The position numbers and the translations under genes were made by a program. From the NCBI GenBank assembly GCA_016937175.1, contig JAFGWL010000058.1, positions 1 to 12,800 on the forward strand: a stretch of 12,800 nt of DNA, given 5' to 3'. Of the stretch, positions 971 to 12,335 are shown piece after piece (positions within the stretch are counted from its first letter, which is position 1; each line of letters begins with the position of its first letter). The DNA is from Candidatus Mcinerneyibacteriota bacterium (GTDB taxonomy: Bacteria; Macinerneyibacteriota; Macinerneyibacteria; Macinerneyibacteriales; DSCS01). The notes below the pieces were generated by a model. The model was not told the DNA's origin. It was given only the letters and a program-made list of their open reading frames with translations, and ran no database searches.

Positions 971-1555
971 ATGAACCGTCAGCTAAGGACAAAAGAAAAG
1001 ATCAGAGCTGCCGCCGCGGATCTCTTTATACGGCATACTGTCAGCCGGGTGACAGCAGACGAGATAGCTTCTTATGCCGGGATGAGCAAGAAGACACTGT
1101 ACAACCACTTTTCTTCAAAAGAAGAGCTTGAAAGAGAGGTCTTTCTTCATTTCATCCACGATATCCGTCTTCAGATAGGACGGTTGGCTGAAGAAGATAC
1201 GGACTTTCTCCATAAGCTTCAAAACCTTATGCGGATCATCACTCATGTCACAGGGATACTCAGTGACAGACTGATCGAGGACCTGCAGCAAAACAAAAGG
1301 GAATTGTGGAGAATGATCGATGAGGAGAGGCATATAAGTTTTATCGAAGGGGTCACTCCGATTTTCCGCCAGGGACAGCAGCAGGGGTTCATCAGAAATA
1401 ACATTGATATTCCCTTTGTCATGGAGATGCTTTATCAGAATATCCGTCTCATAAGCGATTCTGAATTTATCCGTTCCAGCAGCCGCTCTCTTGCCGAGCT
1501 GGCTCCGCTGATGCTTGACATCTTCATGAATGGGATCATGGAAAAAGGGAAATAG
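971..1555 (+). CDS. TetR/AcrR-family transcriptional repressor
   Basis: A 194-residue DNA-binding regulator, probably the ligand-responsive repressor of the exporter operon it begins. Residues 8-53 form the TetR N-terminal domain. The helix-turn-helix lies at about residues 28-47, ending in the family hallmark K-K-T-L-Y-N-H-F followed by S-S-K-E-E-L. The rest is a helical ligand-binding and dimerisation domain with no recognisable ligand motif, as usual. The start is ATG at 971, preceded by a purine-rich GAGGGGGT. The membrane-fusion gene starts 13 bases after the stop, so the two are co-transcribed. In E. coli the TetR protein CecR (YbiH) precedes ybhG-ybhF-ybhS-ybhR in the same order, which makes it the closest analogy. 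The inducer cannot be read from the sequence. Confidence 0.9.
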   Translation: MNRQLRTKEKIRAAAADLFIRHTVSRVTADEIASYAGMSKKTLYNHFSSKEELEREVFLHFIHDIRLQIGRLAEEDTDFLHKLQNLMRIITHVTGILSDRLIEDLQQNKRELWRMIDEERHISFIEGVTPIFRQGQQQGFIRNNIDIPFVMEMLYQNIRLISDSEFIRSSSRSLAELAPLMLDIFMNGIMEKGK

Positions 1556-1568
1556 AGAAGGAGGAAGC

Positions 1569-2438
1569 ATGAAGGCCACAGGTATTTTACTCTTTACAGC
1601 GCTCCTGTTCCTGATATCAGGATGTGCGGGGTCTGGGAATGCTGTCTTTTCGGGGACATTTGAGGCTGAAGAGGTTGATGTCAGCGCTTTGGGAACCGGA
1701 AGGATCGTCGAAATAATGGTAGAAGAGGGAACACAAGTCAAAAAAGGAGAAGACCTTCTGGCTGTGGATTATGAACTTCTCTCTCTTCAACGGGACCAGG
1801 CGCGGTTTGCTCTGGCATCACTTGGAGAAAAGATCAAAGGGCTTGAAAAGAACCTGGAAACGGCCGAGGTGAATTTTGAACGGGTCAGTCGTCTCTATCA
1901 GGAGGGAACTCTGTCTAAAGCCAGGTACGATGAAGCAGAGAACGCCTATGTGGGAGCAAAAAGCGCTTTTCAGGGAGCCCTGATGGATGCAGAGAGGCTC
2001 AAAAAAGAGGCCGCTGTCCTGGAAAAACAGATCAGAGACAGCATTGTCAAAGCTCCCCGGGAAGGGACGGTCACGGAGATCCTCTATAAAGAAGGAGAAT
2101 ATGTCAGGGCAGGAAGTATCGTCCTGAGCCTTGCTGACCTGCGTACCCTGGATATCAGGTTTTATGTACCGGAAAAGGACCTGGAGATGATTCGCGTCGG
2201 AGCTCCGGTGGAGATCATCCCTGACGCCATGCCGGATGCGGTTTATCGGGGGAGGATCACGACAGTTGCCCGGGAATCGGAATTTACCCCAAAGAATGTC
2301 CAATCAAAAGACGAGAGGGTCCTCCTCGTCTATAAGGTGGAGGCTGAAGTAGAGAACAGCGACGGGAAATTGAAAAAGGGGATGAATGGTGACATCATTA
2401 TCCCCGTTAAGGCGGAGGATGATGAAAGCAGTCATTGA
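1569..2438 (+). CDS. HlyD/YbhG-like membrane-fusion lipoprotein of an ABC exporter
   Basis: Periplasmic adaptor of 289 residues linking the inner-membrane ABC exporter to an outer-membrane channel. The N-terminus is a lipoprotein signal: a basic start, a hydrophobic stretch and the lipobox I-S-G-C with the acylated Cys at residue 19. Next come a half biotinyl-lipoyl domain (about 36-67, with V-E-E-G-T-Q-V-K-K-G), a long coiled-coil hairpin (about 70-158), the second lipoyl half (K-A-P-R-E-G-T-V...) and a beta-barrel domain (F-Y-V-P-E-K-D-L onward). F-T-P-K-N-V-Q-S-K-D-E-R near the C-terminus is typical of the YbhG group. An in-frame ATG at 1530 lies inside the repressor gene. I chose 1569 because GGAGG precedes it at the right distance and the signal peptide begins there. 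The gene overlaps the next by 17 bases. Confidence 0.92.
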   Translation: MKATGILLFTALLFLISGCAGSGNAVFSGTFEAEEVDVSALGTGRIVEIMVEEGTQVKKGEDLLAVDYELLSLQRDQARFALASLGEKIKGLEKNLETAEVNFERVSRLYQEGTLSKARYDEAENAYVGAKSAFQGALMDAERLKKEAAVLEKQIRDSIVKAPREGTVTEILYKEGEYVRAGSIVLSLADLRTLDIRFYVPEKDLEMIRVGAPVEIIPDAMPDAVYRGRITTVARESEFTPKNVQSKDERVLLVYKVEAEVENSDGKLKKGMNGDIIIPVKAEDDESSH

Positions 2439-3348
2439 CATAAAAGGCCTCAGATTCAGTTACGGAGAGGTACAGGCGCTTGACGGCGTCTCCTTTGATG
2501 TAGGCGAAGGAGAGATGTTCGGTTTGATCGGCCCGGATGGAGCAGGGAAATCCACGCTGATTAAAATCCTTTGCGGGATCCTCAAAGGATATGAAGGAGA
2601 GGCCGCTGAACTGGGAGAGGATTTAAAAACAGGGGGAGAGTCCATCAAATCCCGTCTTGGATACCTTTCTCAGGAATTCAGCCTTTACAGCGATCTCACT
2701 GTGGAAGAAAATATGTCCTTTTTCGCTGAGATCCATCAGATCAGGGATTTTCCCCGTCGCCGCCGGGAGCTGCTGGATTTTACACGGATGGCCCCTTTTC
2801 GTAACCGTAAAGCCGGGGCCCTTTCAGGCGGGATGAAAAAGAAGCTGGCCCTGGCCTGTACCCTGATCCACTCTCCCTCCATCGTCTATCTGGATGAACC
2901 CACAAACGGGGTTGACCCTGTCTCGCGCAGAGAGTTCTGGGAGATCCTATCCGAGCTTCTCAAGACGGGGGTGACGGTATTTATGACGACGCCCTACATG
3001 GATGAAGCTGAACGCTGTTCTCGTGTGGCTTTTCTGAACGAAGGGAAACTCCTCACGGTGGATCATCCCTCTCTTATGAGGAGCCGGTTCCCCTATGAGG
3101 TCTTTGAGTTGATTCCGTCACCTTCGAAGGATGCCGGAGAAATACTCGAAAAATGGCCCGGGATCCGGGATGTCCAGAGCTTTGGGGAGAGGCTTCATCT
3201 CTATTTTCTGAAGGATAAAGCTCCTGATGCCCGCAGCCTCATCTCGCAGTTTAAGGAAAAGAAGGTCTACAGCCGCGGGGGCCGCTATATCTCTCCGTCA
3301 TTGGAAGATGTCTTTATCAACTATCTCGATAAGGGAGGAGAACAATGA
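2422..3348 (+). CDS. ABC exporter ATPase 1 (YbhF N-half-like, degenerate H-loop)
   Basis: A 308-residue nucleotide-binding protein energising the ABC-2 exporter. Walker A is G-P-D-G-A-G-K-S-T (37-45), the Q-loop lies in L-S-Q-E-F-S-L-Y, the signature is L-S-G-G-M (134-138) and Walker B is I-V-Y-L-D-E-P (154-160). Where the catalytic H-loop His is expected (T-T-H-Y-x-D-E-A-E), residue 191 is Pro (T-T-P-Y-M-D-E-A-E), so this subunit may hydrolyse ATP poorly and act mainly as the regulatory half of a heterodimer. The G-P-D-G Walker A and altered H-loop resemble the N-terminal half of fused YbhF-type ATPases. It ends with the family motif L-E-D-V-F-I. Starts at 2386, 2419 and 2422 are possible. 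I prefer 2422, where the ATPase domain begins and GGAGG lies just upstream, although spacing is short. It overlaps the next gene by ATGA. Confidence 0.9.
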   Translation: MKAVIDIKGLRFSYGEVQALDGVSFDVGEGEMFGLIGPDGAGKSTLIKILCGILKGYEGEAAELGEDLKTGGESIKSRLGYLSQEFSLYSDLTVEENMSFFAEIHQIRDFPRRRRELLDFTRMAPFRNRKAGALSGGMKKKLALACTLIHSPSIVYLDEPTNGVDPVSRREFWEILSELLKTGVTVFMTTPYMDEAERCSRVAFLNEGKLLTVDHPSLMRSRFPYEVFELIPSPSKDAGEILEKWPGIRDVQSFGERLHLYFLKDKAPDARSLISQFKEKKVYSRGGRYISPSLEDVFINYLDKGGEQ

Positions 3349-4667
3349 AACGGTTTATCACTTGTCTTGCAGTCTTCATCTTCTCTGTCTTTATGATCTC
3401 GGCGGAGCCGATAGAACTGACAATACGTCAGGCCCTTGAAAGGGCCTTTGACCGGGATCTGGGCTACCAAGCAGCGAAAAAGGATGTCCTGATCAGTGAA
3501 GCCCGGGCCGGGCAGGCTGCTGGAGATCTCTGGCCGTCGATCACAGTCGAGTCTTCCCTCTTTCTTACCGATGAAAAAGAGGCGTATACCCTTTCTCTGC
3601 CCCTTTCCTCAGAAGAGGTAGTCATTGCACCCGAGACGGATCGATTGCAGAAAAACAGTATTACCCTTGTCCAGCCTCTTTTTGCCGGAGGGACACTTGT
3701 CAGCAAAAAGGCTTTCTTCCGTACAGGAATTAAAATATCAGAAAGCCGGCTCAAGGAGACGGCAGGTGATCTTGCCTTGAGGGTCCATGAGCTCTATTGG
3801 TCCATGGCAAAACTGGACAACGGGGAAAAGGCCCTGGAAAAAACACGTGAACTTGTCCTTGCACATATGAAGGATGTGGAGACTTTTTACAACGAAGGGC
3901 TGGCTACCAAAGTGGATCTGTTGAGAGTGAAAGAACGTCTTTCCCGAATCGACCTGGAGATCATAGAAAACAAAAACCGGCTTGAAAAGACGGCCCTTCA
4001 GCTTAAGAATATCCTGGGCCTGGACGGGGGAGAGAGGATCATAACAGTCTCTTCTGTAGAAGAGATAGCCGGGAACCTTCCTTCGGAGAGTCTATGCGTG
4101 GAAACAGCTGGGAAAAGCAATGATTCTCTCAGGGAGGCTCGTTTTGCCGTAGAGGCTGCCCGTTATCAGAAAAGGATGGTTCGCGGAGATCTTTCTCCCA
4201 AGGTCGCCTTTGTCGCTGCGTATCATTACGATAAGCCAAATTCTTCTCAGCAGCCTCTCCTGGATACTTATCAGGAAAGCTGGGAAGCGGGGCTCTCACT
4301 CTCTTTTGATCTCTTCTCCGGAGGGAAGAGGTTCGCGCGGGTTACAGAGGCTTCGTTGTCCGAAGAACGCAGCATCCTGATATACGAAAAATTGCGGCGG
4401 AACCTGGAAAGCTATGTCAGGGCTCATTACCGGGATTATGAGGCACAGGGGCTGACACTTGAAGCAGCCCGGCGGAATTTTGAAGAAGCAGAAGAGAATT
4501 TCAGAATGACAAGGTCTCTTTATCTGGAAGGAATGGCTGTCAATACCGATGTCCTGGATGCTGAAGCGGCCTATACCGAGGCTCAGATCCGTGTCTTGAA
4601 TGCAGCTGTGGACAAAGAACTGGCCCGGCTCAGGCTTTTGAATATCATGGGAGTCCTGGAAAGATGA
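3345..4667 (+). CDS. TolC-like outer-membrane efflux protein
   Basis: A 440-residue outer-membrane factor, expected to form a trimeric beta-barrel and periplasmic helical tunnel that receives substrate from the adaptor. A Sec signal peptide covers about residues 1-20 (basic MKR, hydrophobic core, probable cut after I-S-A). The mature part has two repeated halves of long amphipathic helices. Recognisable landmarks are L-T-I-R-Q-A-L-E-R-A near the N-terminus, Q-P-L-F-A-G-G before the first helical pair, the corresponding F-D-L-F-S-G-G-K-R in the second half, and N-T-D-V-L-D-A-E near the end. Start and stop both overlap neighbours by ATGA, so it is translationally coupled to both ATPase genes. 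A strong AAGGGAGGAG precedes the start. Its position between the two ATPase genes is unusual, because E. coli ybhGFSR has no channel gene of its own. Confidence 0.93.
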   Translation: MKRFITCLAVFIFSVFMISAEPIELTIRQALERAFDRDLGYQAAKKDVLISEARAGQAAGDLWPSITVESSLFLTDEKEAYTLSLPLSSEEVVIAPETDRLQKNSITLVQPLFAGGTLVSKKAFFRTGIKISESRLKETAGDLALRVHELYWSMAKLDNGEKALEKTRELVLAHMKDVETFYNEGLATKVDLLRVKERLSRIDLEIIENKNRLEKTALQLKNILGLDGGERIITVSSVEEIAGNLPSESLCVETAGKSNDSLREARFAVEAARYQKRMVRGDLSPKVAFVAAYHYDKPNSSQQPLLDTYQESWEAGLSLSFDLFSGGKRFARVTEASLSEERSILIYEKLRRNLESYVRAHYRDYEAQGLTLEAARRNFEEAEENFRMTRSLYLEGMAVNTDVLDAEAAYTEAQIRVLNAAVDKELARLRLLNIMGVLER

Positions 4668-5590
4668 GAAGTGAATCAGCTGTCACCGTCAAAGGGCTTT
4701 GTAAAAGGTTCGGTTCCTTTACAGCCGTAGACCATATCGATTTTACGGTACGAAAAGGAGAGATCTTTGGTTTTCTGGGAGCCAACGGTGCCGGCAAGAC
4801 GACTACGATCCGGATGTTATGCGGCCTTCTTCGCCCTTCTGAGGGGGTAGGAAAGGTAGCAGGATTTGATATCATGACAGACACAGAGATGATCAAGACC
4901 AGGATCGGCTATATGTCCCAGAAGTTTTCTCTATATGATGATCTCACTGTCATGGAGAATATCTCTTTTTTCGGCGGATTGTACGGATTATCAGCCAGGG
5001 AATTGGGAAAAAGGGGGAGGGAGGTCATAGAGTGGGCCGGCCTGGCGGGGATGGAGCGGCGCATCACCTCTACCCTGGCGGGAGGGTGGAAACAAAGGCT
5101 GGCCCTGGGGACAGCCCTTCTTCATGAACCGGAGATCATCTTCCTCGATGAACCCACAGCCGGTGTCGATCCCGTCTCCAGAAGAAATTTCTGGAAAATT
5201 ATTCAGGAGATCGCACATCGGGGTGTGACAGTCTTTGTGACGACCCATTACCTGGATGAAGCGGAATATTGTCATTCGATCAGGCTGATGGATAGAGGGC
5301 GGATCATAGCCGCCGGAGCTCCCGAAGAGCTCAAAAAAGAGGTCATTACCGAAAAAATGTATCAGATGGAGACAGATCAGCCCGCAAGGGCCGTGCATAT
5401 TCTGAAAACCCTTCAGGATATTTCCGGAGCTTCTCTCCTTGGGATCAAGATAAACATTCTAACGGATCTTCCGGAGCAGGAGTTGAAACAGATGGTCTTA
5501 GAGAAGATGAGCGCTGAAGAGATCCCTGTGGAATCTCTGGAGCCTGTGGACCCTACCCTGGAAGATGTCTTTATCAGGCTCATCAAATAA
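4664..5590 (+). CDS. ABC exporter ATPase 2 (YbhF C-half-like, complete catalytic site)
   Basis: A 308-residue ATPase, the likely catalytic partner of the first one. Walker A is G-A-N-G-A-G-K-T-T (39-47), the signature is L-A-G-G-W-K-Q-R-L (138-146) and Walker B is I-I-F-L-D-E-P (158-164). The H-loop is intact, with His at residue 195 (T-T-H-Y-L-D-E-A-E). The G-G-W-K-Q-R-L form of the signature is characteristic of the second half of YbhF-type ATPases. The C-terminal extension again ends in L-E-D-V-F-I. It starts in an ATGA overlap with the channel gene, and the first permease starts 10 bases after its stop. Equal length and complementary motifs suggest the two ATPases form a heterodimer under the two permeases; that pairing is inference. 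Confidence 0.93.
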   Translation: MRSESAVTVKGLCKRFGSFTAVDHIDFTVRKGEIFGFLGANGAGKTTTIRMLCGLLRPSEGVGKVAGFDIMTDTEMIKTRIGYMSQKFSLYDDLTVMENISFFGGLYGLSARELGKRGREVIEWAGLAGMERRITSTLAGGWKQRLALGTALLHEPEIIFLDEPTAGVDPVSRRNFWKIIQEIAHRGVTVFVTTHYLDEAEYCHSIRLMDRGRIIAAGAPEELKKEVITEKMYQMETDQPARAVHILKTLQDISGASLLGIKINILTDLPEQELKQMVLEKMSAEEIPVESLEPVDPTLEDVFIRLIK

Positions 5591-5600
5591 GGAGAATATC

Positions 5601-6707
5601 ATGGGAAGAATCAGAGCGGTGGTAAAAAAGGAGATGAAGCATATCGTCAGAGACCGGCGTTCCTTCAGCCTTCTTGTCATTATCCCCCTCTTTATGCTGG
5701 TCCTTTTCGGCTTCGCCCTCAACTTCAATGTCACAGAGGTGCCCATGGATGTGATTGACCGGTCACAGAGCGCTGAAAGCAGGCTTCTGATCGATAAATT
5801 CGTACAATCGGGCTATTTTAAGGTCCGACGATTCTTGCCGGACGAGAAAGAGGCTCTTGATGCCATGTCCCGGGGGAAAAGTGTGCTTATCCTCGATATC
5901 CCCGGGGACTTCAGTCACAACCTTCGAAAAGGCATTGAGAGTGATGTCGGCCTTTTTTTTGACGGAGTGGATACCAATACCGCTACAGCAGCCATGAGCT
6001 ATGCGGAGAATATCATATCGCTTTTCAACCGTGAGAGGGCCGGAACGGCTCCGGATTCAGCAGGGATCGACTTCAGACCTCGAGTCTGGTATAATCCCGA
6101 GCTCAGCTCCCGGGTCTTTCTGATTCCCGGACTCATCGTCTATATTCTCATGATCATCACAGTGGTCTCCACATCGCTGACCATTGTCCGGGAAAGAGAG
6201 GAAAGGACCATCGAGCAACTCATCGTCTCCCCCCTGGGGTCTATGGAGCTTATTCTGGGGAAAGTGGTCCCCTATATGATTCTGACTTTGGGAAGTGCCC
6301 TTGCCATCATGGCTTTTGGATATCTGATTTTCGGAGTCGGCGTCAAGGGCAGCCTGCTTCTTCTCTTTTTAAGTATGGCAATCTTTCTCACTGTGGGTGT
6401 CGCCACGGGGATCCTTATCTCGGCGATAGCCGATACACGACAATTCGCTTTTCTTCTGTCTGTTCTTTTTACCGTCCTCCCCACCTTGCTGCTTTCTGGT
6501 TTTGTCTTCCCGATCCGCAATATGGCTCCATTTATACAGGGAATCACCTATCTGGTCCCTGCCCGTTATTTCACTGAGATCATCCGGAATATCTATATCA
6601 AAGGCGTGGGTTTCGAGACATTCTGGGGCGAGTTTTCCGTGATGACCCTGATGGCCGCAGGCCTTCTTTTTATCAGTATCCGGAAGCTCAGATCACGTTT
6701 ATCATAG
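5601..6707 (+). CDS. ABC-2 type exporter permease 1 (YbhS/YbhR-like)
   Basis: A 368-residue inner-membrane subunit forming half of the exporter pore. A cytoplasmic amphipathic start (K-K-E-M-K-H-I-V-R-D-R-R) leads into TM1 (about 22-42). A large extracytoplasmic domain of about 130 residues follows, containing D-T-N-T-A-T. Then come five further membrane segments from about residue 171 to the C-terminus. Family hallmarks are I-V-R-E-R-E-E-R-T-I-E-Q-L after TM2 and S-G-F-V-F-P-I-R-N-M followed by P-A-R-Y-F. An in-frame ATG at 5565 lies inside the ATPase gene. I prefer 5601, preceded by AAGGAG and starting with the expected basic N-terminus. The second permease follows after 8 bases. Confidence 0.93.
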   Translation: MGRIRAVVKKEMKHIVRDRRSFSLLVIIPLFMLVLFGFALNFNVTEVPMDVIDRSQSAESRLLIDKFVQSGYFKVRRFLPDEKEALDAMSRGKSVLILDIPGDFSHNLRKGIESDVGLFFDGVDTNTATAAMSYAENIISLFNRERAGTAPDSAGIDFRPRVWYNPELSSRVFLIPGLIVYILMIITVVSTSLTIVREREERTIEQLIVSPLGSMELILGKVVPYMILTLGSALAIMAFGYLIFGVGVKGSLLLLFLSMAIFLTVGVATGILISAIADTRQFAFLLSVLFTVLPTLLLSGFVFPIRNMAPFIQGITYLVPARYFTEIIRNIYIKGVGFETFWGEFSVMTLMAAGLLFISIRKLRSRLS

Positions 6708-6715
6708 GAGGGAAA

Positions 6716-7840
6716 ATGACGCGTCTTTTTGCCTTTATCAGAAAAGAATTCCTGCAGTTTAAACGAGACCCGAAGATGCTGGCTATGAGCATCCTCTCTC
6801 CTCTTCTTCAACTGATCCTCCTGGGGTATGCCGCAAGCTTCGATATCTCGCATATTCCCACAGTTGTCTGGGACCAGGACGGAAGCGCGATGAGCCGTTC
6901 TTATATTGATGCTTTTCAGGCGAGTGAAGCTTTCAAAGTGCTTAGCCCTCTTCAGAGCCGTGAAGAACTTGTGCGGCGCCTTGACACGGGGGAAGCCGCC
7001 CTGGCCCTTATCATCGAAGAGGGTTTTCAATCTCATATTCTGGAGGGAGAGTCACCAAAAGTGGCCGCTCTGGTGGACGGAACAGACACCAATACGGCGA
7101 CCTCAGGACTCTTCTACTCCGGGGAGGTCACTAAAAGCTTTGTACAAAGATCGAGAAAACCCCCACTTACTTCTCTCATGACTCATAAGGCGGGGCAGGT
7201 TGTGCCCCGGATGCGTGTGACATTCAACCAAAGTCTTGAAAGCCGGCACTTTCTGGTTCCGGGGATCCTCGGGCTTGTCCTCATGATCATCACCATGACC
7301 CTGACATCGTTGGCTATTGTGAAAGAGAAAGAGAAGGGGACTTTGGAACAGGTGATGGTGACCCCTGTAAAAGGCTGGGAAGTCATCCTCGGGAAGCTGA
7401 TACCCTTTGCAGTCATCGGAATGATCGATATTCTGCTGGTCATCGGCTCAGCGGTATTTCTTTTCGGGATACCCTTGAAAGGAAGCCTGGCCCTTCTTCT
7501 GGCGCTCTCCTTCCTCTATCTCTTAAGTATGCTGGGATTGGGGCTTTTTATCTCAACGATCTCCCAGACCCAGCAACAAGCTATGCTTACCGCTGTCTTC
7601 TTTATCATAACACCCATGGTCTTTCTCTCGGGGTTTATTTTTCCGGTCCGCAATATGCCGGAGGGGATTCAACTTGTGACACCCCTCCTGCCTCTTAAAC
7701 ACTATCTGGAGATCATCAGGGGTATTTTTTTAAGAGGAGCGGGGATCCGGCAGCTTTGGGCTCCGGTGTCGGCTCTTGCTGTTCTCAGCCTGGGTATCTT
7801 TTCAGTGAGCCTTCTTCGGTTCAGAAAATCATCGGAATGA
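6716..7840 (+). CDS. ABC-2 type exporter permease 2 (YbhS/YbhR-like)
   Basis: A 374-residue partner of the preceding permease, with the same layout: a basic N-terminus (I-R-K-E-F-L-Q-F-K-R-D-P), one TM segment (about 21-40), an extracytoplasmic domain with G-T-D-T-N-T-A-T, then five C-terminal TM segments. Shared hallmarks are I-V-K-E-K-E-K-G-T-L-E-Q and S-G-F-I-F-P-V-R-N-M-P. The start follows AGGAGGG with a 3-base gap. As the last gene of the exporter operon, it ends inside an inverted repeat. The two permeases are clearly related and probably assemble as a heterodimer with the two ATPases. Substrate is not readable; relatives export drugs or other toxic compounds. Confidence 0.93.
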   Translation: MTRLFAFIRKEFLQFKRDPKMLAMSILSPLLQLILLGYAASFDISHIPTVVWDQDGSAMSRSYIDAFQASEAFKVLSPLQSREELVRRLDTGEAALALIIEEGFQSHILEGESPKVAALVDGTDTNTATSGLFYSGEVTKSFVQRSRKPPLTSLMTHKAGQVVPRMRVTFNQSLESRHFLVPGILGLVLMIITMTLTSLAIVKEKEKGTLEQVMVTPVKGWEVILGKLIPFAVIGMIDILLVIGSAVFLFGIPLKGSLALLLALSFLYLLSMLGLGLFISTISQTQQQAMLTAVFFIITPMVFLSGFIFPVRNMPEGIQLVTPLLPLKHYLEIIRGIFLRGAGIRQLWAPVSALAVLSLGIFSVSLLRFRKSSE

Positions 7841-7919: not shown

Positions 7920-7948
7920 TTGACATCATTACAATCCCCTGATAAAAT
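7920..7948 (+). promoter_or_regulatory. Sigma70-type promoter of the nqr operon
   Basis: TTGACA at 7920-7925 and TAAAAT at 7943-7948 are separated by the optimal 17 bases. Transcription should start near 7955, leaving a leader of about 25 bases with AAGGGGG (7969-7975) before the nqrB ATG at 7981. The short leader leaves no room for a riboswitch. No operator-like dyad is obvious, which suits a constitutively expressed respiratory enzyme. Confidence 0.8.
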
Positions 7949-7980: not shown

Positions 7981-8922
7981 ATGGCAGAAGGAAAAAAGAT
8001 CATCCAGAAGCAGAAGCCTATGCGGACTGTGCTTACGGGACTGACCCCCGCGGTGGCCGTTTCTGTCTATTATTTCGGATGGAGAAGCCTGGTGCTTCTC
8101 TTTGTCGTCACTTTTTTCGGATTTTTAACAGAGTATATCTTTAACAGGTTTTATAATAAGCCTGTCACCGAGGCGGTCTTTGTCACCTGTGTCCTCTTTG
8201 CTCTTTCCCTTCCGCCTACACTGCCTTACTGGATGGCCGCTCTGGGGATCATCTTCGGCCTGGTCTTCGGAAAACTGGCCTTCGGCGGGTTCGGACGCAA
8301 TGTCTTCAACCCCGCTCTGGTGGGTCGTGTTTTCCTCTATATCAATTTCGGTAACGCGATGACAGGGAAAGGGGCCTGGCTTGACCCCGACGGGACTTTC
8401 CCCGCCGGCCTGGTACGTTTTACTCTGGACAGTATCAGCGAAGCCACTCCTCTCAGAGCTCTTGCTTCGGGTGGCTCCGTTGCGTTGAAGGATCTTTTTT
8501 TAGGGAACACAGGAGGATGCCTGGGAGATACGGCGGCTTTCCTTCTTATTATGGGAGGGATCTATATCCTCTGGAAAAAAGTCGCCAATTACCGTATTGT
8601 CACCGGGGTCCTGCTGGGTTTTCTGGCGATGAACGGCAGCTTGTGGCTGGCAGGCCTGACTTTTGATCCCCTGCGGGGGCTGTTGGCCGGAGGTTTTTTG
8701 CTGGGAGCTTTCTTCATGGCCACAGACCCTGTCTCAGCAGCCCAGACGAACAGGGGACGGTGGATATACGGGATCCTTATCGGTGTCTTGTCCGTTCTCA
8801 TCCGGGTATTCTCCAATTGGCCCGAAGGGGTCATGTTTGCTATTCTCCTGGGAAATATGTTCGCTCCTATCATCGATTATGCCCTTTCAGCCAATAAAAA
8901 AAAGGAGAGCTCTCATGCCTGA
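7981..8922 (+). CDS. nqrB: Na+-translocating NADH:quinone oxidoreductase subunit B
   Basis: A 313-residue integral membrane subunit of Na+-NQR, carrying covalent FMN and belonging to the sodium path. About ten hydrophobic segments can be seen. The flavinylation motif is D-S-I-S-E-A-T-P-L (residues 150-158), with the FMN acceptor Thr at 156. N-P-A-L-V-G-R and F-M-A-T-D-P-V-S-A (245-253) are conserved in the NqrB/RnfD family. The C-terminal stretch (W-I-Y-G-I-L-I-G-V-L, then N-x-F-A-P-I-I-D-Y) matches NqrB better than RnfD, and the following nqrF settles the identity. It is shorter than typical NqrB of about 410 residues, mainly because the long soluble N-terminus is reduced to about 15 residues. 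It overlaps nqrC by 8 bases. No nqrA precedes it. Confidence 0.92.
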   Translation: MAEGKKIIQKQKPMRTVLTGLTPAVAVSVYYFGWRSLVLLFVVTFFGFLTEYIFNRFYNKPVTEAVFVTCVLFALSLPPTLPYWMAALGIIFGLVFGKLAFGGFGRNVFNPALVGRVFLYINFGNAMTGKGAWLDPDGTFPAGLVRFTLDSISEATPLRALASGGSVALKDLFLGNTGGCLGDTAAFLLIMGGIYILWKKVANYRIVTGVLLGFLAMNGSLWLAGLTFDPLRGLLAGGFLLGAFFMATDPVSAAQTNRGRWIYGILIGVLSVLIRVFSNWPEGVMFAILLGNMFAPIIDYALSANKKKESSHA

Positions 8923-9553
8923 GAAGAAAGGAGCCTGGGGGAAAAGCCTCTATACCATTGTTTTTATGACTTTTCTGACAGCGCTCTTCATCACTGTACT
9001 GTCCCTTCTCTTTCTCAAGACACGTCCGCGGATCAGGGTCAATGAGAGTTATGATTTCAAAAGTGCTGTTTTGCACGCAGCAGGAGAAGAAACAGGCCGT
9101 TCAGGCCCCGAAGCTCTCATAGCTCATTATGATTCTTCTGTGGAAGAGAAGAAGCTCCCAGAAGGCAAAGGATTATATTATAAAGTATTGCGCCGGGACG
9201 GGTCTGTCTCCTATGTATTCCCTTTCCAGGGGCCGGGGCTTTGGGGTGAGATCGAAGGAGTGCTGGGGTACAACGGAGGCCTGACGGAGATCACGGGGTT
9301 TGATATCCTGAAACAGAATGAGACTCCGGGCCTGGGCGGACGGATTACCGAAGCGTGGTTTAAGAGTCAGTTCAAGGGGAAAGTGGGCCCTTTTATCGCA
9401 CTTGTGACAAGTGAGGAAGGCCGGGATTCTGTAAACTCTTTCCAGGCTGTGACCGGGGCCACATCGACTTCTGCTGCGGTCCAGTCCATTTTGAATGATT
9501 TGATCCGAAGCAGCATCGAGATGCTGAGAACTGTTCCCGAGGAGGAGCGATGA
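8915..9553 (+). CDS. nqrC: Na+-translocating NADH:quinone oxidoreductase subunit C
   Basis: A 212-residue subunit with one N-terminal TM anchor (about 11-34) and an extracytoplasmic FMN domain. The family motif E-T-P-G-L-G-G is present. The ApbE flavinylation site is T-G-A-T-S-T-S, with acceptor Thr at residue 183 (codon 9461-9463). Position -6 from that Thr, normally Asp (as in D-G-L-S-G-A-T), is Gln 177 here. The protein is shorter than proteobacterial NqrC of about 255 residues and nearer to RnfG in size. The ATG at 8915, inside the nqrB end, has AAAGGAG just upstream and begins the expected basic-then-hydrophobic N-terminus. The frame stays open further upstream, but that part is nqrB in another frame. 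The stop overlaps nqrD by ATGA. Confidence 0.92.
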   Translation: MPEKKGAWGKSLYTIVFMTFLTALFITVLSLLFLKTRPRIRVNESYDFKSAVLHAAGEETGRSGPEALIAHYDSSVEEKKLPEGKGLYYKVLRRDGSVSYVFPFQGPGLWGEIEGVLGYNGGLTEITGFDILKQNETPGLGGRITEAWFKSQFKGKVGPFIALVTSEEGRDSVNSFQAVTGATSTSAAVQSILNDLIRSSIEMLRTVPEEER

Positions 9554-10158
9554 AAGGTAATACGAAAAAATTGTTCCGGGACGGGTTGTTCAAAAACAAC
9601 CCCGTCTTTATTCAGATCCTTGGGATCTGTTCCACACTAGCTGTGACCAACAGGGTCAAAAACACCGTTGTCATGGTGGCCGGTTTGCTTTTTGTCGTAG
9701 CCTTGTCCAATCTTACCATCTCCCTTCTTCGCAAAGCGATTCCGTCGCGTGTGAGGATGATGGCCGAAGTCCTGATCATTGCCTCATTTGTCATTATCGT
9801 CGATATCGTTCTGAAGGCCTATCTGTGGGATATCTCAAAACAGCTTGGCCCCTATGTGGGACTCATCATCACCAACTGTATTATTATGGGACGGGCGGAA
9901 GCCTTTGCCATCTCCAACCCTCCGTGGCCCTCCTTTTTGGACGGTATCGCTTCAGGACTGGGATATGCCTATGTCCTGGTCTCCATCGCCATCGTCAGGG
10001 AGCTTTTGGGGAATGGTACTCTCTGGGAGATCCAGATTCTGGGAGACTGGTGGGTCAAATGGACCATGATGGTCATGGCCTCCGGGGCCTTTTTCATGTT
10101 GGCTCTCTTCATCTGGATCATGAAAGGGATCGTCTTCAGAGAGCGGGGTGAAGCATGA
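9550..10158 (+). CDS. nqrD: Na+-translocating NADH:quinone oxidoreductase subunit D
   Basis: A 202-residue integral membrane subunit of the NqrD/RnfE family, with six predicted TM segments. Together with NqrE it forms the inverted-topology core that holds an iron-sulfur centre mid-membrane. The two conserved cysteines are visible: Cys27 in L-G-I-C-S-T-L-A-V-T, and Cys110 in I-T-N-C-I-I-M-G-R-A-E-A-F-A. N-P-P-W-P-S-F-L-D-G and I-V-R-E-L-L-G-N-G-T are further family landmarks. Length is normal. The start overlaps the nqrC stop (ATGA) with GGAGGAG upstream; its own stop overlaps nqrE the same way. Confidence 0.95.
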   Translation: MKGNTKKLFRDGLFKNNPVFIQILGICSTLAVTNRVKNTVVMVAGLLFVVALSNLTISLLRKAIPSRVRMMAEVLIIASFVIIVDIVLKAYLWDISKQLGPYVGLIITNCIIMGRAEAFAISNPPWPSFLDGIASGLGYAYVLVSIAIVRELLGNGTLWEIQILGDWWVKWTMMVMASGAFFMLALFIWIMKGIVFRERGEA

Positions 10159-10742
10159 CTTTTCTGGGAGCTTTTGCCGTTTTTTTTGCAGCGATCTTTA
10201 CCAACAATATCCTCCTGACCAACTATCTGGGGATGTGCTCCTTTCTTTCCGTCTCCCGGGAAGTAAAGACATCGGTGGGCCTGGGAGCAGCGGTGACCTT
10301 TGTCATGGCCTTTACAAGCGCCATCAACTGGGCCGTCTACCACTACCTTCTGGTTCCGGATCTTGTCTATCTGCGATATATAGTCTTTATCGTGGTCATC
10401 GCCGCTTTTGTCCAGATCGTGGAAATGATCATTGAACGGGTATCCGATGTCCTTTATGCGGCATTGGGGATATTTTTGCCTTTAATCACCGTCAACTGTG
10501 CAATCCTGGGGGTCAGCCTTTTTATGGTCATCCGGGAATATACCTTTCTTCAGTCATTTGCTTTCGGCCTTGGGAGCGGCCTGGGTTGGATGCTGGCCAT
10601 CATCGCCATGGCGGGGATCCGCAGGAAGATCGCCAAAAGCCCGATCCCGAGGGGGCTGGAGGGCGCCGGGATAACACTGATCATTGCCGGGATCATGGCC
10701 ATGGCTTTTGTGGGGTTTTCAGGGATGATCACCCTGGGATAA
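10155..10742 (+). CDS. nqrE: Na+-translocating NADH:quinone oxidoreductase subunit E
   Basis: A 195-residue integral membrane subunit, homologous to NqrD and RnfA, with six predicted TM segments. Cysteines Cys28 (Y-L-G-M-C-S-F-L) and Cys115 (T-V-N-C-A-I-L-G-V) are the expected partners of the two NqrD cysteines for the shared [2Fe-2S] centre. V-T-F-V-M-A-F-T...Y-H-Y-L-L resembles the NqrE consensus. The C-terminal half has E-G-A-G-I-T-L-I-I-A-G-I and ends in G-F-S-G-M, as usual. Length is normal. Translation is coupled to nqrD by the ATGA overlap, and nqrF follows after 12 bases. Confidence 0.95.
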   Translation: MTFLGAFAVFFAAIFTNNILLTNYLGMCSFLSVSREVKTSVGLGAAVTFVMAFTSAINWAVYHYLLVPDLVYLRYIVFIVVIAAFVQIVEMIIERVSDVLYAALGIFLPLITVNCAILGVSLFMVIREYTFLQSFAFGLGSGLGWMLAIIAMAGIRRKIAKSPIPRGLEGAGITLIIAGIMAMAFVGFSGMITLG

Positions 10743-10754
10743 GGGAGGCCTATT

Positions 10755-11855
10755 TTGAACGAACTGATTCAAGCTGTGGGAATCCTCTCGGCCATATCAG
10801 CAGTGCTTTCTCTGCTTATGGTCATCGCCGACAGGACCATTGCCAATTACGGCGAAGTGACCATCACCATTAATGATGAGAAAAAGTTAACTGTTCAGGG
10901 GGGGAGCACTCTGTTGAGCACACTGATGAGTGAGGAGATCTTCATTCCTTCCGCGTGTGGAGGCCGGGGCTCCTGCGGATTCTGCAAAGTCAGGGTCCTG
11001 GAGGGAGCGGGGGATACCCTGCCTACGGAACTTCCTCATCTGTCCGAAGAAGAGCGCCGAAACAGTATCCGCCTCTCCTGTCAGCTGAAAATTAAAAAAG
11101 ATATGAAGATCGAGATCCCTGAGGAACTCTTTAATGTGAAGCAATTTAGGGGGGTCGTGGCCCGGATAAGGGATCTGACGTATGATATTAAGGAGATCAC
11201 CATCCGTCTTCTGGAGCCTGCAGAGATCTCCTTCAAGGCCGGCCAGTATGTACAGCTGGAGACACCCGAGTATGAATTGGCTGACGAGCCTGTCTACAGG
11301 GCCTACTCTGTCTCTTCGGCTCCCAGCCGAAAGGACCTGGTGGAATTGGAGATCCGGCGTGTCCCCAACGGGATCTGCACGACCTATGTCCATGATTATC
11401 TGAAGGAAGGGGCCGCGGTGACGTTGAACGGGCCTTATGGCGAATTCTTCTTGCGTGATTCAACCCGGAGGATCGTCTTTATCGCCGGAGGGTCGGGAAA
11501 CGCTCCCATCAAATCCATACTTTCGGATATGGCGGAAAAGAAGATCGGGCGAAAGGCTCTTTACTTCTTCGGTGCCAGGACTACAAAAGACCTCTTTTTA
11601 CAAGAGGAGATGAAAGCATTTGAAGGACAATTGTCCGATTTTACATATATCCCCGCCCTTTCAGAACCTGCAGAAGAAGATAATTGGGGCGGAGAGACAG
11701 GGCTCATCACCGATGTTATCGACCGACGCCTGGACATGGGTGAAGAGACCGAAGCTTACCTGTGCGGCAGCCCCGGAATGATCGCAGCCTGCATTAAAGT
11801 CCTGACAGCGAAAGGAATTCCCGAAGAGCGTATCTATTATGATAAATTTGCATGA
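10755..11855 (+). CDS. nqrF: Na+-translocating NADH:quinone oxidoreductase subunit F (NADH-oxidising)
   Basis: A 366-residue entry subunit that oxidises NADH through FAD and a [2Fe-2S] ferredoxin domain. One N-terminal TM anchor (about 5-26) is followed by the ferredoxin domain with Cys68, Cys74, Cys77 and Cys109 (S-A-C-G-G-R-G-S-C-G-F-C and R-L-S-C-Q). Next is the FAD domain (R-A-Y-S-V-S-S), then the NADH domain (G-G-S-G-N-A-P, Y-L-C-G-S-P-G-M). The terminal Y-Y-D-K-F-A keeps an aromatic residue near the end, as in other NqrF. It lacks a segment of about 30 residues found in Vibrio NqrF between the flavin-domain start and R-A-Y-S, and so is shorter than the usual 407. The start codon is TTG with GGGAGG six bases upstream; the next in-frame ATG (residue 22) would remove most of the membrane anchor. 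Confidence 0.95.
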   Translation: MNELIQAVGILSAISAVLSLLMVIADRTIANYGEVTITINDEKKLTVQGGSTLLSTLMSEEIFIPSACGGRGSCGFCKVRVLEGAGDTLPTELPHLSEEERRNSIRLSCQLKIKKDMKIEIPEELFNVKQFRGVVARIRDLTYDIKEITIRLLEPAEISFKAGQYVQLETPEYELADEPVYRAYSVSSAPSRKDLVELEIRRVPNGICTTYVHDYLKEGAAVTLNGPYGEFFLRDSTRRIVFIAGGSGNAPIKSILSDMAEKKIGRKALYFFGARTTKDLFLQEEMKAFEGQLSDFTYIPALSEPAEEDNWGGETGLITDVIDRRLDMGEETEAYLCGSPGMIAACIKVLTAKGIPEERIYYDKFA

Positions 11856-11867
11856 GAGGAGTCAGGC

Positions 11868-12335
11868 ATGAAACAGACAGTCCAGATGGATAAGATTCAG
11901 GCCAGCATGCGGCGGGGTGTCATTACCCTGGAAGGTTTTTTGGGAACGGATACGCGAAAACTCGTAGATATTCTAATAGATGATGATGCTGAGGTCCGCC
12001 GCCTGGGGATGAGTCACGAGGCCATTGCCCGCCGCATGCTGGAGCTGAAACAGGCAGGGGAAGCAGGGCTGGGAGAGTTTGTCACTGTCGGTGAACAGCT
12101 TGAGGTCAAAGTGGATGCTGTCCGCGGGAAGCTGCCTTGCCCCTTCGGTGATCCGGGGATCTTCGGGAAAGTAAATACAACGGTTCGGAATAAAAAGACC
12201 AAAAAAGAGGTGACTTATACCGATCTTCATATCCACATGATCTGGGCTCACGGGTTTTATGAGGGGAAAGGATCCCGCTTCCGGCTGGAACCTGCCGAAC
12301 TTATAGACATATTGGAAGTTAAAAGAGACGAATAA
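11868..12335 (+). CDS. Conserved-looking protein of unknown function, last gene of nqr operon
   Basis: I do not recognise this 155-residue protein and assign no function. It starts 12 bases after nqrF with AGAGGA seven bases upstream of its ATG, so it is almost certainly co-transcribed with the pump. It has no signal peptide or membrane segment and should be cytoplasmic. The N-terminal half is charged and helical (A-I-A-R-R-M-L-E-L-K). The C-terminal half holds motifs that look conserved: G-K-L-P-C-P-F-G-D-P-G (single Cys, residue 91), then a patch with His 121, 123 and 128 (D-L-H-I-H-M-I-W-A-H-G-F-Y-E-G-K-G), then F-R-L-E-P. One Cys plus clustered His could suggest metal or redox binding, but this is speculation. 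It is neither NqrM (small, Cys-rich, membrane) nor ApbE. Confidence 0.85.
   Translation: MKQTVQMDKIQASMRRGVITLEGFLGTDTRKLVDILIDDDAEVRRLGMSHEAIARRMLELKQAGEAGLGEFVTVGEQLEVKVDAVRGKLPCPFGDPGIFGKVNTTVRNKKTKKEVTYTDLHIHMIWAHGFYEGKGSRFRLEPAELIDILEVKRDE

Follow-up and report, generated by a model that had tools for sequence, protein, structure and literature searches.

An NqrA-less nqrBCDEF operon of Candidatus Mcinerneyibacteriota as a probable member of a distinct Na+-NQR-like clade

The nqrBCDEF operon identified on contig JAFGWL010000058.1 of a Candidatus Mcinerneyibacteriota genome (GCA_016937175.1) was found to have no accompanying nqrA, and it probably belongs to a distinct clade of Na+-NQR-like complexes, predicted from sequence to be five-subunit, NADH-driven ion pumps that feed an acceptor other than quinone. 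NqrA-less operons are already in print; what is new here is the clade itself, the loss of an arm of NqrB that docks NqrA, the quinone-less nature of many hosts and an orphan protein whose gene is locked to the operon.

Organization of the operon

The window (the whole stretch of DNA analysed, 12,800 nucleotides) spans an entire contig of a draft genome of 1.88 Mb in 71 contigs, with a completeness of 98.66%. Five genes were identified by their Pfam and NCBIfam domains as nqrB to nqrF (Table 1), in keeping with an earlier note on this DNA that had described an nqrBCDEF operon lacking nqrA, and they are tightly packed, with overlaps or 12-base gaps between them (7981-11855). The dedicated promoter proposed in that note was located as a promoter-like site (a consensus match only) that reads into nqrB, with a TG preceding its second hexamer and the nqrB start situated approximately 30 bases further 3'. 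The ABC-export operon upstream of this site is unrelated; it is complete (971-7840) and comprises a TetR regulator, an HlyD-type protein, ABC ATPases, an outer-membrane efflux protein and two ABC-2 permeases. The interval given in the note ended at 12335 and thus included a sixth gene that had been left unmentioned. Further 3', a strong promoter-like site precedes two tRNAs and a 16S rRNA gene, of which the window includes the 5' end.

Table 1. Features of the nqrBCDEF operon and its upstream region
Feature	Position	Strand	Description
Sigma-70-type promoter-like site, TTGACA-17-TAAAAT	7920..7948	+	11/12 consensus matches; consensus match only
nqrB, short NqrB/RnfD homologue, 313 aa	7981..8922	+	NQR2_RnfD_RnfE domain; flavinylation motif SEATPL
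nqrC, short NqrC/RnfG homologue, about 212 aa	about 8915..9553	+	FMN_bind; flavinylation motif GATSTS
nqrD, 202 aa	9550..10158	+	Rnf-Nqr domain; NF006777 and TIGR01939 above cut-off; both [2Fe-2S] cysteines
nqrE, NqrE/RnfA homologue, 195 aa	10155..10742	+	Rnf-Nqr domain; both [2Fe-2S] cysteines
nqrF, 366 aa, TTG start	10755..11855	+	TM helix, [2Fe-2S] ferredoxin (Fer2), FAD/NADH domains
Sixth operon gene, 155-aa soluble orphan protein	11868..12335	+	Starts 12 bases 3' of nqrF; unannotated

NqrB and NqrC are indeed short, as had been remarked, when compared to the approximately 400 and 250 aa of their canonical counterparts, and short operons of relatives show that this is a property of the variant. 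NqrD and NqrF reach NCBI equivalog cut-offs (NqrF scoring 316.7 bits against TIGR01941, cut-off 295), while NqrB scores over the NCBIfam cut-off for RnfD and under that for NqrB. As a result, pipelines assign mixed subunit names, as in the Ilyobacter record, and a variant labelled as a mixture of RnfD, NqrD and NqrF is easily overlooked.

Absence of nqrA and distribution of the short operon

No nqrA was found genome-wide using profile searches: the sole match to TIGR01936 scored 22 bits and lies on a true RnfC, and the match to PF05896 (a further nqrA model) falls on a biotin-carrier protein. The same operon is carried by the congener G001 (99% complete) and by G002, whose contig stops inside nqrD, with no nqrA above cut-off in either genome. 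A true absence, which the earlier note had raised, is therefore supported, and the relocation it had considered, of the kind known from Chlamydia, is not borne out, as no ordinary nqrA lies elsewhere in this genome or in those of the two relatives. The collection that was searched contains only three genomes of the source phylum, and each possesses the operon together with the gene for the 155-aa protein.

A scan of species genomes encoding NqrF returned 59 loci with two architectures. The canonical one is nqrABCDEF, with an NqrB of about 400 aa and an NqrF of 405-436 aa, and the short one is BCDEF without nqrA, with an NqrB of about 320 aa and an NqrF of about 366 aa. Records carrying a short BCDEF operon bore the labels Spirochaetes, Kiritimatiellae, Clostridia and Tissierellales, Fusobacteria, Nitrospirae, Limnochordia and deltaproteobacteria, and they include isolates of Alkaliphilus, Acidaminobacter, Dethiosulfatibacter, Propionigenium and Ilyobacter. 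The genes flanking these operons vary by lineage, which indicates that the short operon is a self-contained unit, and no conserved extra gene was found in those of Clostridia. The NqrC of Propionigenium maris (L034 5645-6739) has 364 aa, which greatly exceeds the length of its relatives, and possibly carries an extra domain.

Among the 35 genomes with a short BCDEF operon, the nqrA cut-off was passed in one only, a Kiritimatiellae MAG (G005). Its NqrA was rejected as a partner of the short operon because it is encoded in a complete nqrABCDEF operon located separately; this MAG holds three related operons, namely rnf, canonical nqrABCDEF and NqrA-less nqrBCDEF (L019, L124, L125).

Cofactor ligands and the NqrB arm

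Sequence comparison showed that cofactor ligands are kept in practically all members of the short clade. These are the threonines of NqrB and NqrC that bind flavin covalently and the four cysteines of NqrD and NqrE, while NqrF keeps its four ferredoxin cysteines and its FAD/NADH motifs. The ApbE flavin transferase was found in 34 of the 35 short-BCDEF genomes.

What is missing is the cytoplasmic arm N-terminal to transmembrane helix 1 in NqrB, and the canonical N-terminal extension is absent also. The motif of this arm, which docks NqrA or RnfC, was identified in 26/27 canonical NqrB and 27/27 RnfD sequences and in none of 31 short NqrB sequences, 30 of which have a KQ-like pair in its place, immediately preceding the helix. 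In the RNF structure the arm of RnfD is buried in RnfC (PMC9588780), and in Na+-NQR the arm of NqrB is intertwined with NqrA, with the NqrB N-terminus building the quinone/inhibitor pocket (PMC9325719, PMC10643135).

With the ligands conserved, the electron path up to NqrB is predicted to be that of the shared core. NADH would be oxidised at NqrF by way of FAD and [2Fe-2S], from which electrons would pass to the [2Fe-2S] cluster between NqrD and NqrE, to the outer-face FMN of NqrC and then to the FMN and riboflavin of NqrB. Oxidation of NADH through this core may drive the export of Na+ (or H+), with electrons presumably leaving from NqrB, at the cytoplasmic face, or from NqrC, to an acceptor other than a quinone made by the cell. 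The five-subunit pump envisaged in the earlier note, with nqrA truly absent, thus agrees, as a prediction, with the retained ligands and with the existence of the short BCDEF clade.

The 155-aa protein encoded by the sixth gene

Relatives of the 155-aa protein were identified in nine of 39 searched genomes, as a single copy in each, and all nine lie directly 3' of nqrF in a short BCDEF operon. A further relative, annotated as hypothetical, occurs in Ilyobacter. Beyond the source phylum the family was found in spirochaete, Kiritimatiellae and Fusobacteria lineages, with none identified in Clostridia or in canonical-NQR genomes among the 39. Searches with the protein gave no match in NCBIfam, PHROG or the sequences of the PDB and nothing above the cut-off in Pfam, where the best hit was a chance HTH (E 0.066). 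Its AlphaFold model is confident (pLDDT 92.3); the best match among PDB folds had an E of 0.21, with Z at most 2.2, which does not in itself prove a new fold. Without a convincing fold match, function could not be read from the fold.

Going by linkage alone, this protein may work with the pump, and within the source lineage it is the leading candidate for a partner peculiar to that lineage. It is a tentative and rather unlikely idea that, in the spirochaete, Kiritimatiellae and Fusobacteria lineages, it fills the place of NqrA/RnfC, serving electron output or control, in a quinone-independent, NADH-driven ion pump.

Quinones as electron acceptors

An alternative is that the complex still reduces (mena)quinone directly at NqrB, with NqrA being merely dispensable. 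The quinone site of canonical NQR lies mostly within NqrB, and of its residues E144 persists in 29/29 and E157 in 23/29 short NqrB sequences. NqrA carries no cofactor (PMC12174285). The glycines G140/G141 of this site were discarded as diagnostic, the second glycine being missing also in 23 of 25 sampled canonical NqrB sequences. However, short NqrB lacks the N-terminal segment that makes up the quinone/inhibitor pocket, and the gene content of the hosts argues against the alternative too.

MenA, UbiA and MqnP are members of the UbiA family. Some gene of this family is present in 20 of the 35 short-BCDEF genomes, which is in favour of quinone reduction, but is absent from the other 15, among them the isolates Alkaliphilus pronyensis, A. 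serpentinus and Acidaminobacter JC074, so these cannot make quinones. Strong matches to the futalosine pathway (PF02621) were limited, among the 35, to G028 and to G005, which also has NqrA; no gene of this pathway was found in the source genome with PF02621. The single UbiA of the source genome appears linked to lipids, adjoining a PcrB/GGGP synthase and a geranylgeranyl reductase (L134 6484-9395; contig G000:C68, about 44.5-47.4 kb), a cluster that points to archaeal-type ether-lipid synthesis in a bacterium. Taken with the loss of the pocket, this makes direct reduction of quinone by the complex unlikely. As E144 and E157 persist, quinone scavenged from neighbouring cells could possibly act as acceptor, going by these residues.

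Phylogeny

In trees of concatenated B, D and E sequences, short BCDEF, canonical NQR and RNF were each monophyletic (100/99, 100/100 and 100/100), and these groups persisted unaltered when Ruegeria, Prevotella, Ilyobacter and Bacteroidetes RNF sequences were included. In the NqrF tree, with monooxygenase reductases as outgroup, the short and canonical forms were reciprocally monophyletic (96/89 and 100/100). Alkaliphilus relatives group inside the short-BCDEF clade. The trees comprise these three groups only, with the position of the root assumed and with sequences of Thermotoga and C. ultunense left out. Reciprocal monophyly in both the B/D/E and the NqrF trees indicates that the short form is not a recent loss within canonical NQR.

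The short operon could instead be a living intermediate that predates the addition of NqrA in the evolution of NQR from RNF, as the earlier note had suggested. In favour of this, both the B/D/E and the NqrF tree place it as sister to canonical NQR, and the length of short NqrF is near that of monooxygenase reductases. However, RnfC was present in every sampled RNF operon and is homologous to NqrA, from which an A/C-type subunit is most simply assigned to the common ancestor, and its later disappearance from the short-BCDEF lineage is the simpler history. The intermediate reading is thus distinctly improbable, and a single loss of the A/C-type subunit at the base of the short-BCDEF clade is preferred as the likely course of events. 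The RNF of Bacteroidetes (L137, L138) nests within RNF and not beside NQR, which does not favour a published proposal that derives NQR from a duplicated rnf operon of Chlorobi/Bacteroidetes.

RnfC and the separate RNF operon

A search for rnfC and rnfB, which the earlier note had recommended, located a separate rnfCDGEA operon in the source genome (G000:C37), on a contig that ends before rnfB; rnfB is present in G001. The complex might therefore borrow RnfC from this operon to give a six-subunit hybrid, and a full-scoring RnfC, above cut-off, was identified in 33 of the 35 short-BCDEF genomes. However, the docking arm for RnfC is lacking in all 31 short NqrB sequences, and with NADH entering at NqrF and NAD+ reduced at RnfC there would be no redox span for pumping. 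In addition, two genomes, both of them MAGs, have no such RnfC, with G015 giving no match and G025 giving PrdC only. Such a hybrid is accordingly regarded as highly unlikely.

Sub-threshold RnfC matches elsewhere, which proved to be PrdC in two genomes and RnfC-like proteins without the N-terminal part in others, were set aside as partners because they occur in a minority of genomes only. The RnfC-like PrdC proteins are encoded at L133 5327-6490 and L166 816-1979, the former copy (G025) lying beside proline-reductase-like genes.

The last alternative, that nqrA is present in an assembly gap or has diverged past recognition, draws on the 71 contigs of the genome, but it is largely refuted and has next to no probability given the 98.66% completeness, the same absence in G001 and, at the family cut-off, in 34 of the 35 BCDEF genomes, the ease with which RnfC was found by the same method and the missing NqrA-binding arm of NqrB.

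Comparison to known systems

Operons of NqrBCDEF without NqrA have been reported in Thermotoga thermarum and T. lettingae in 2014 (PMC4148951), in Clostridium ultunense and Alkaliphilus metalliredigens in 2018 (PMC5924567), where a lower-potential acceptor was suggested for C. ultunense; NqrBCDEF has also been described in an Izimaplasma (PMC6256511). A phrase search, subscription papers aside, found no further studies of such operons. Those of Thermotoga, C. ultunense and A. metalliredigens resemble the operon described here in gene order, in the lack of NqrA and in the presence of RNF in the genome, with the acceptor declared to be unknown (PMC4148951, PMC5924567). The Thermotoga and C. ultunense reports are genome notes, however, and do not include phylogeny, an analysis of the arm, a survey of quinones or the 155-aa gene. 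An evolutionary study of 2014 listed no nqr operon in Thermotogae and stated that Firmicutes lack one (PMC4014512); the operons of Clostridia contradict the latter statement if the short form is counted.

Canonical Na+-NQR of the Vibrio cholerae type shares homologous B, C, D, E and F subunits, the cofactor ligands and the architecture of NqrF with the present operon, which differs in lacking NqrA, the NqrB arm and the N-terminal extension, in its shorter NqrC and NqrF and in its placement in a separate clade. RNF (RnfABCDGE) has a homologous core of D, G, E and A, with short NqrB being the size of RnfD, but the present operon has NqrF in place of RnfB, no RnfC and no SPHI arm. Two-subunit NQR/RNF-like systems are likewise reduced relatives of NQR, proposed to hand electrons from NAD(P)H to acceptors outside the cytosol (Meheust et al. 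2021, PMC8238504). In these, NqrB is fused to a PF00175 domain and NqrD and NqrE are missing (PMC8238504), in contrast to the present operon, in which the core subunits are all encoded, each as a separate protein.

Implications

The role of NqrA, a subunit without a cofactor, is an open question, and a clade that has neither NqrA nor its docking arm reveals what the core alone can do. Should the proposed function be true, quinone-less strict anaerobes would have an ion-pumping NADH oxidase besides RNF, and present schemes of fermentative energy conservation would contain a gap at this point.
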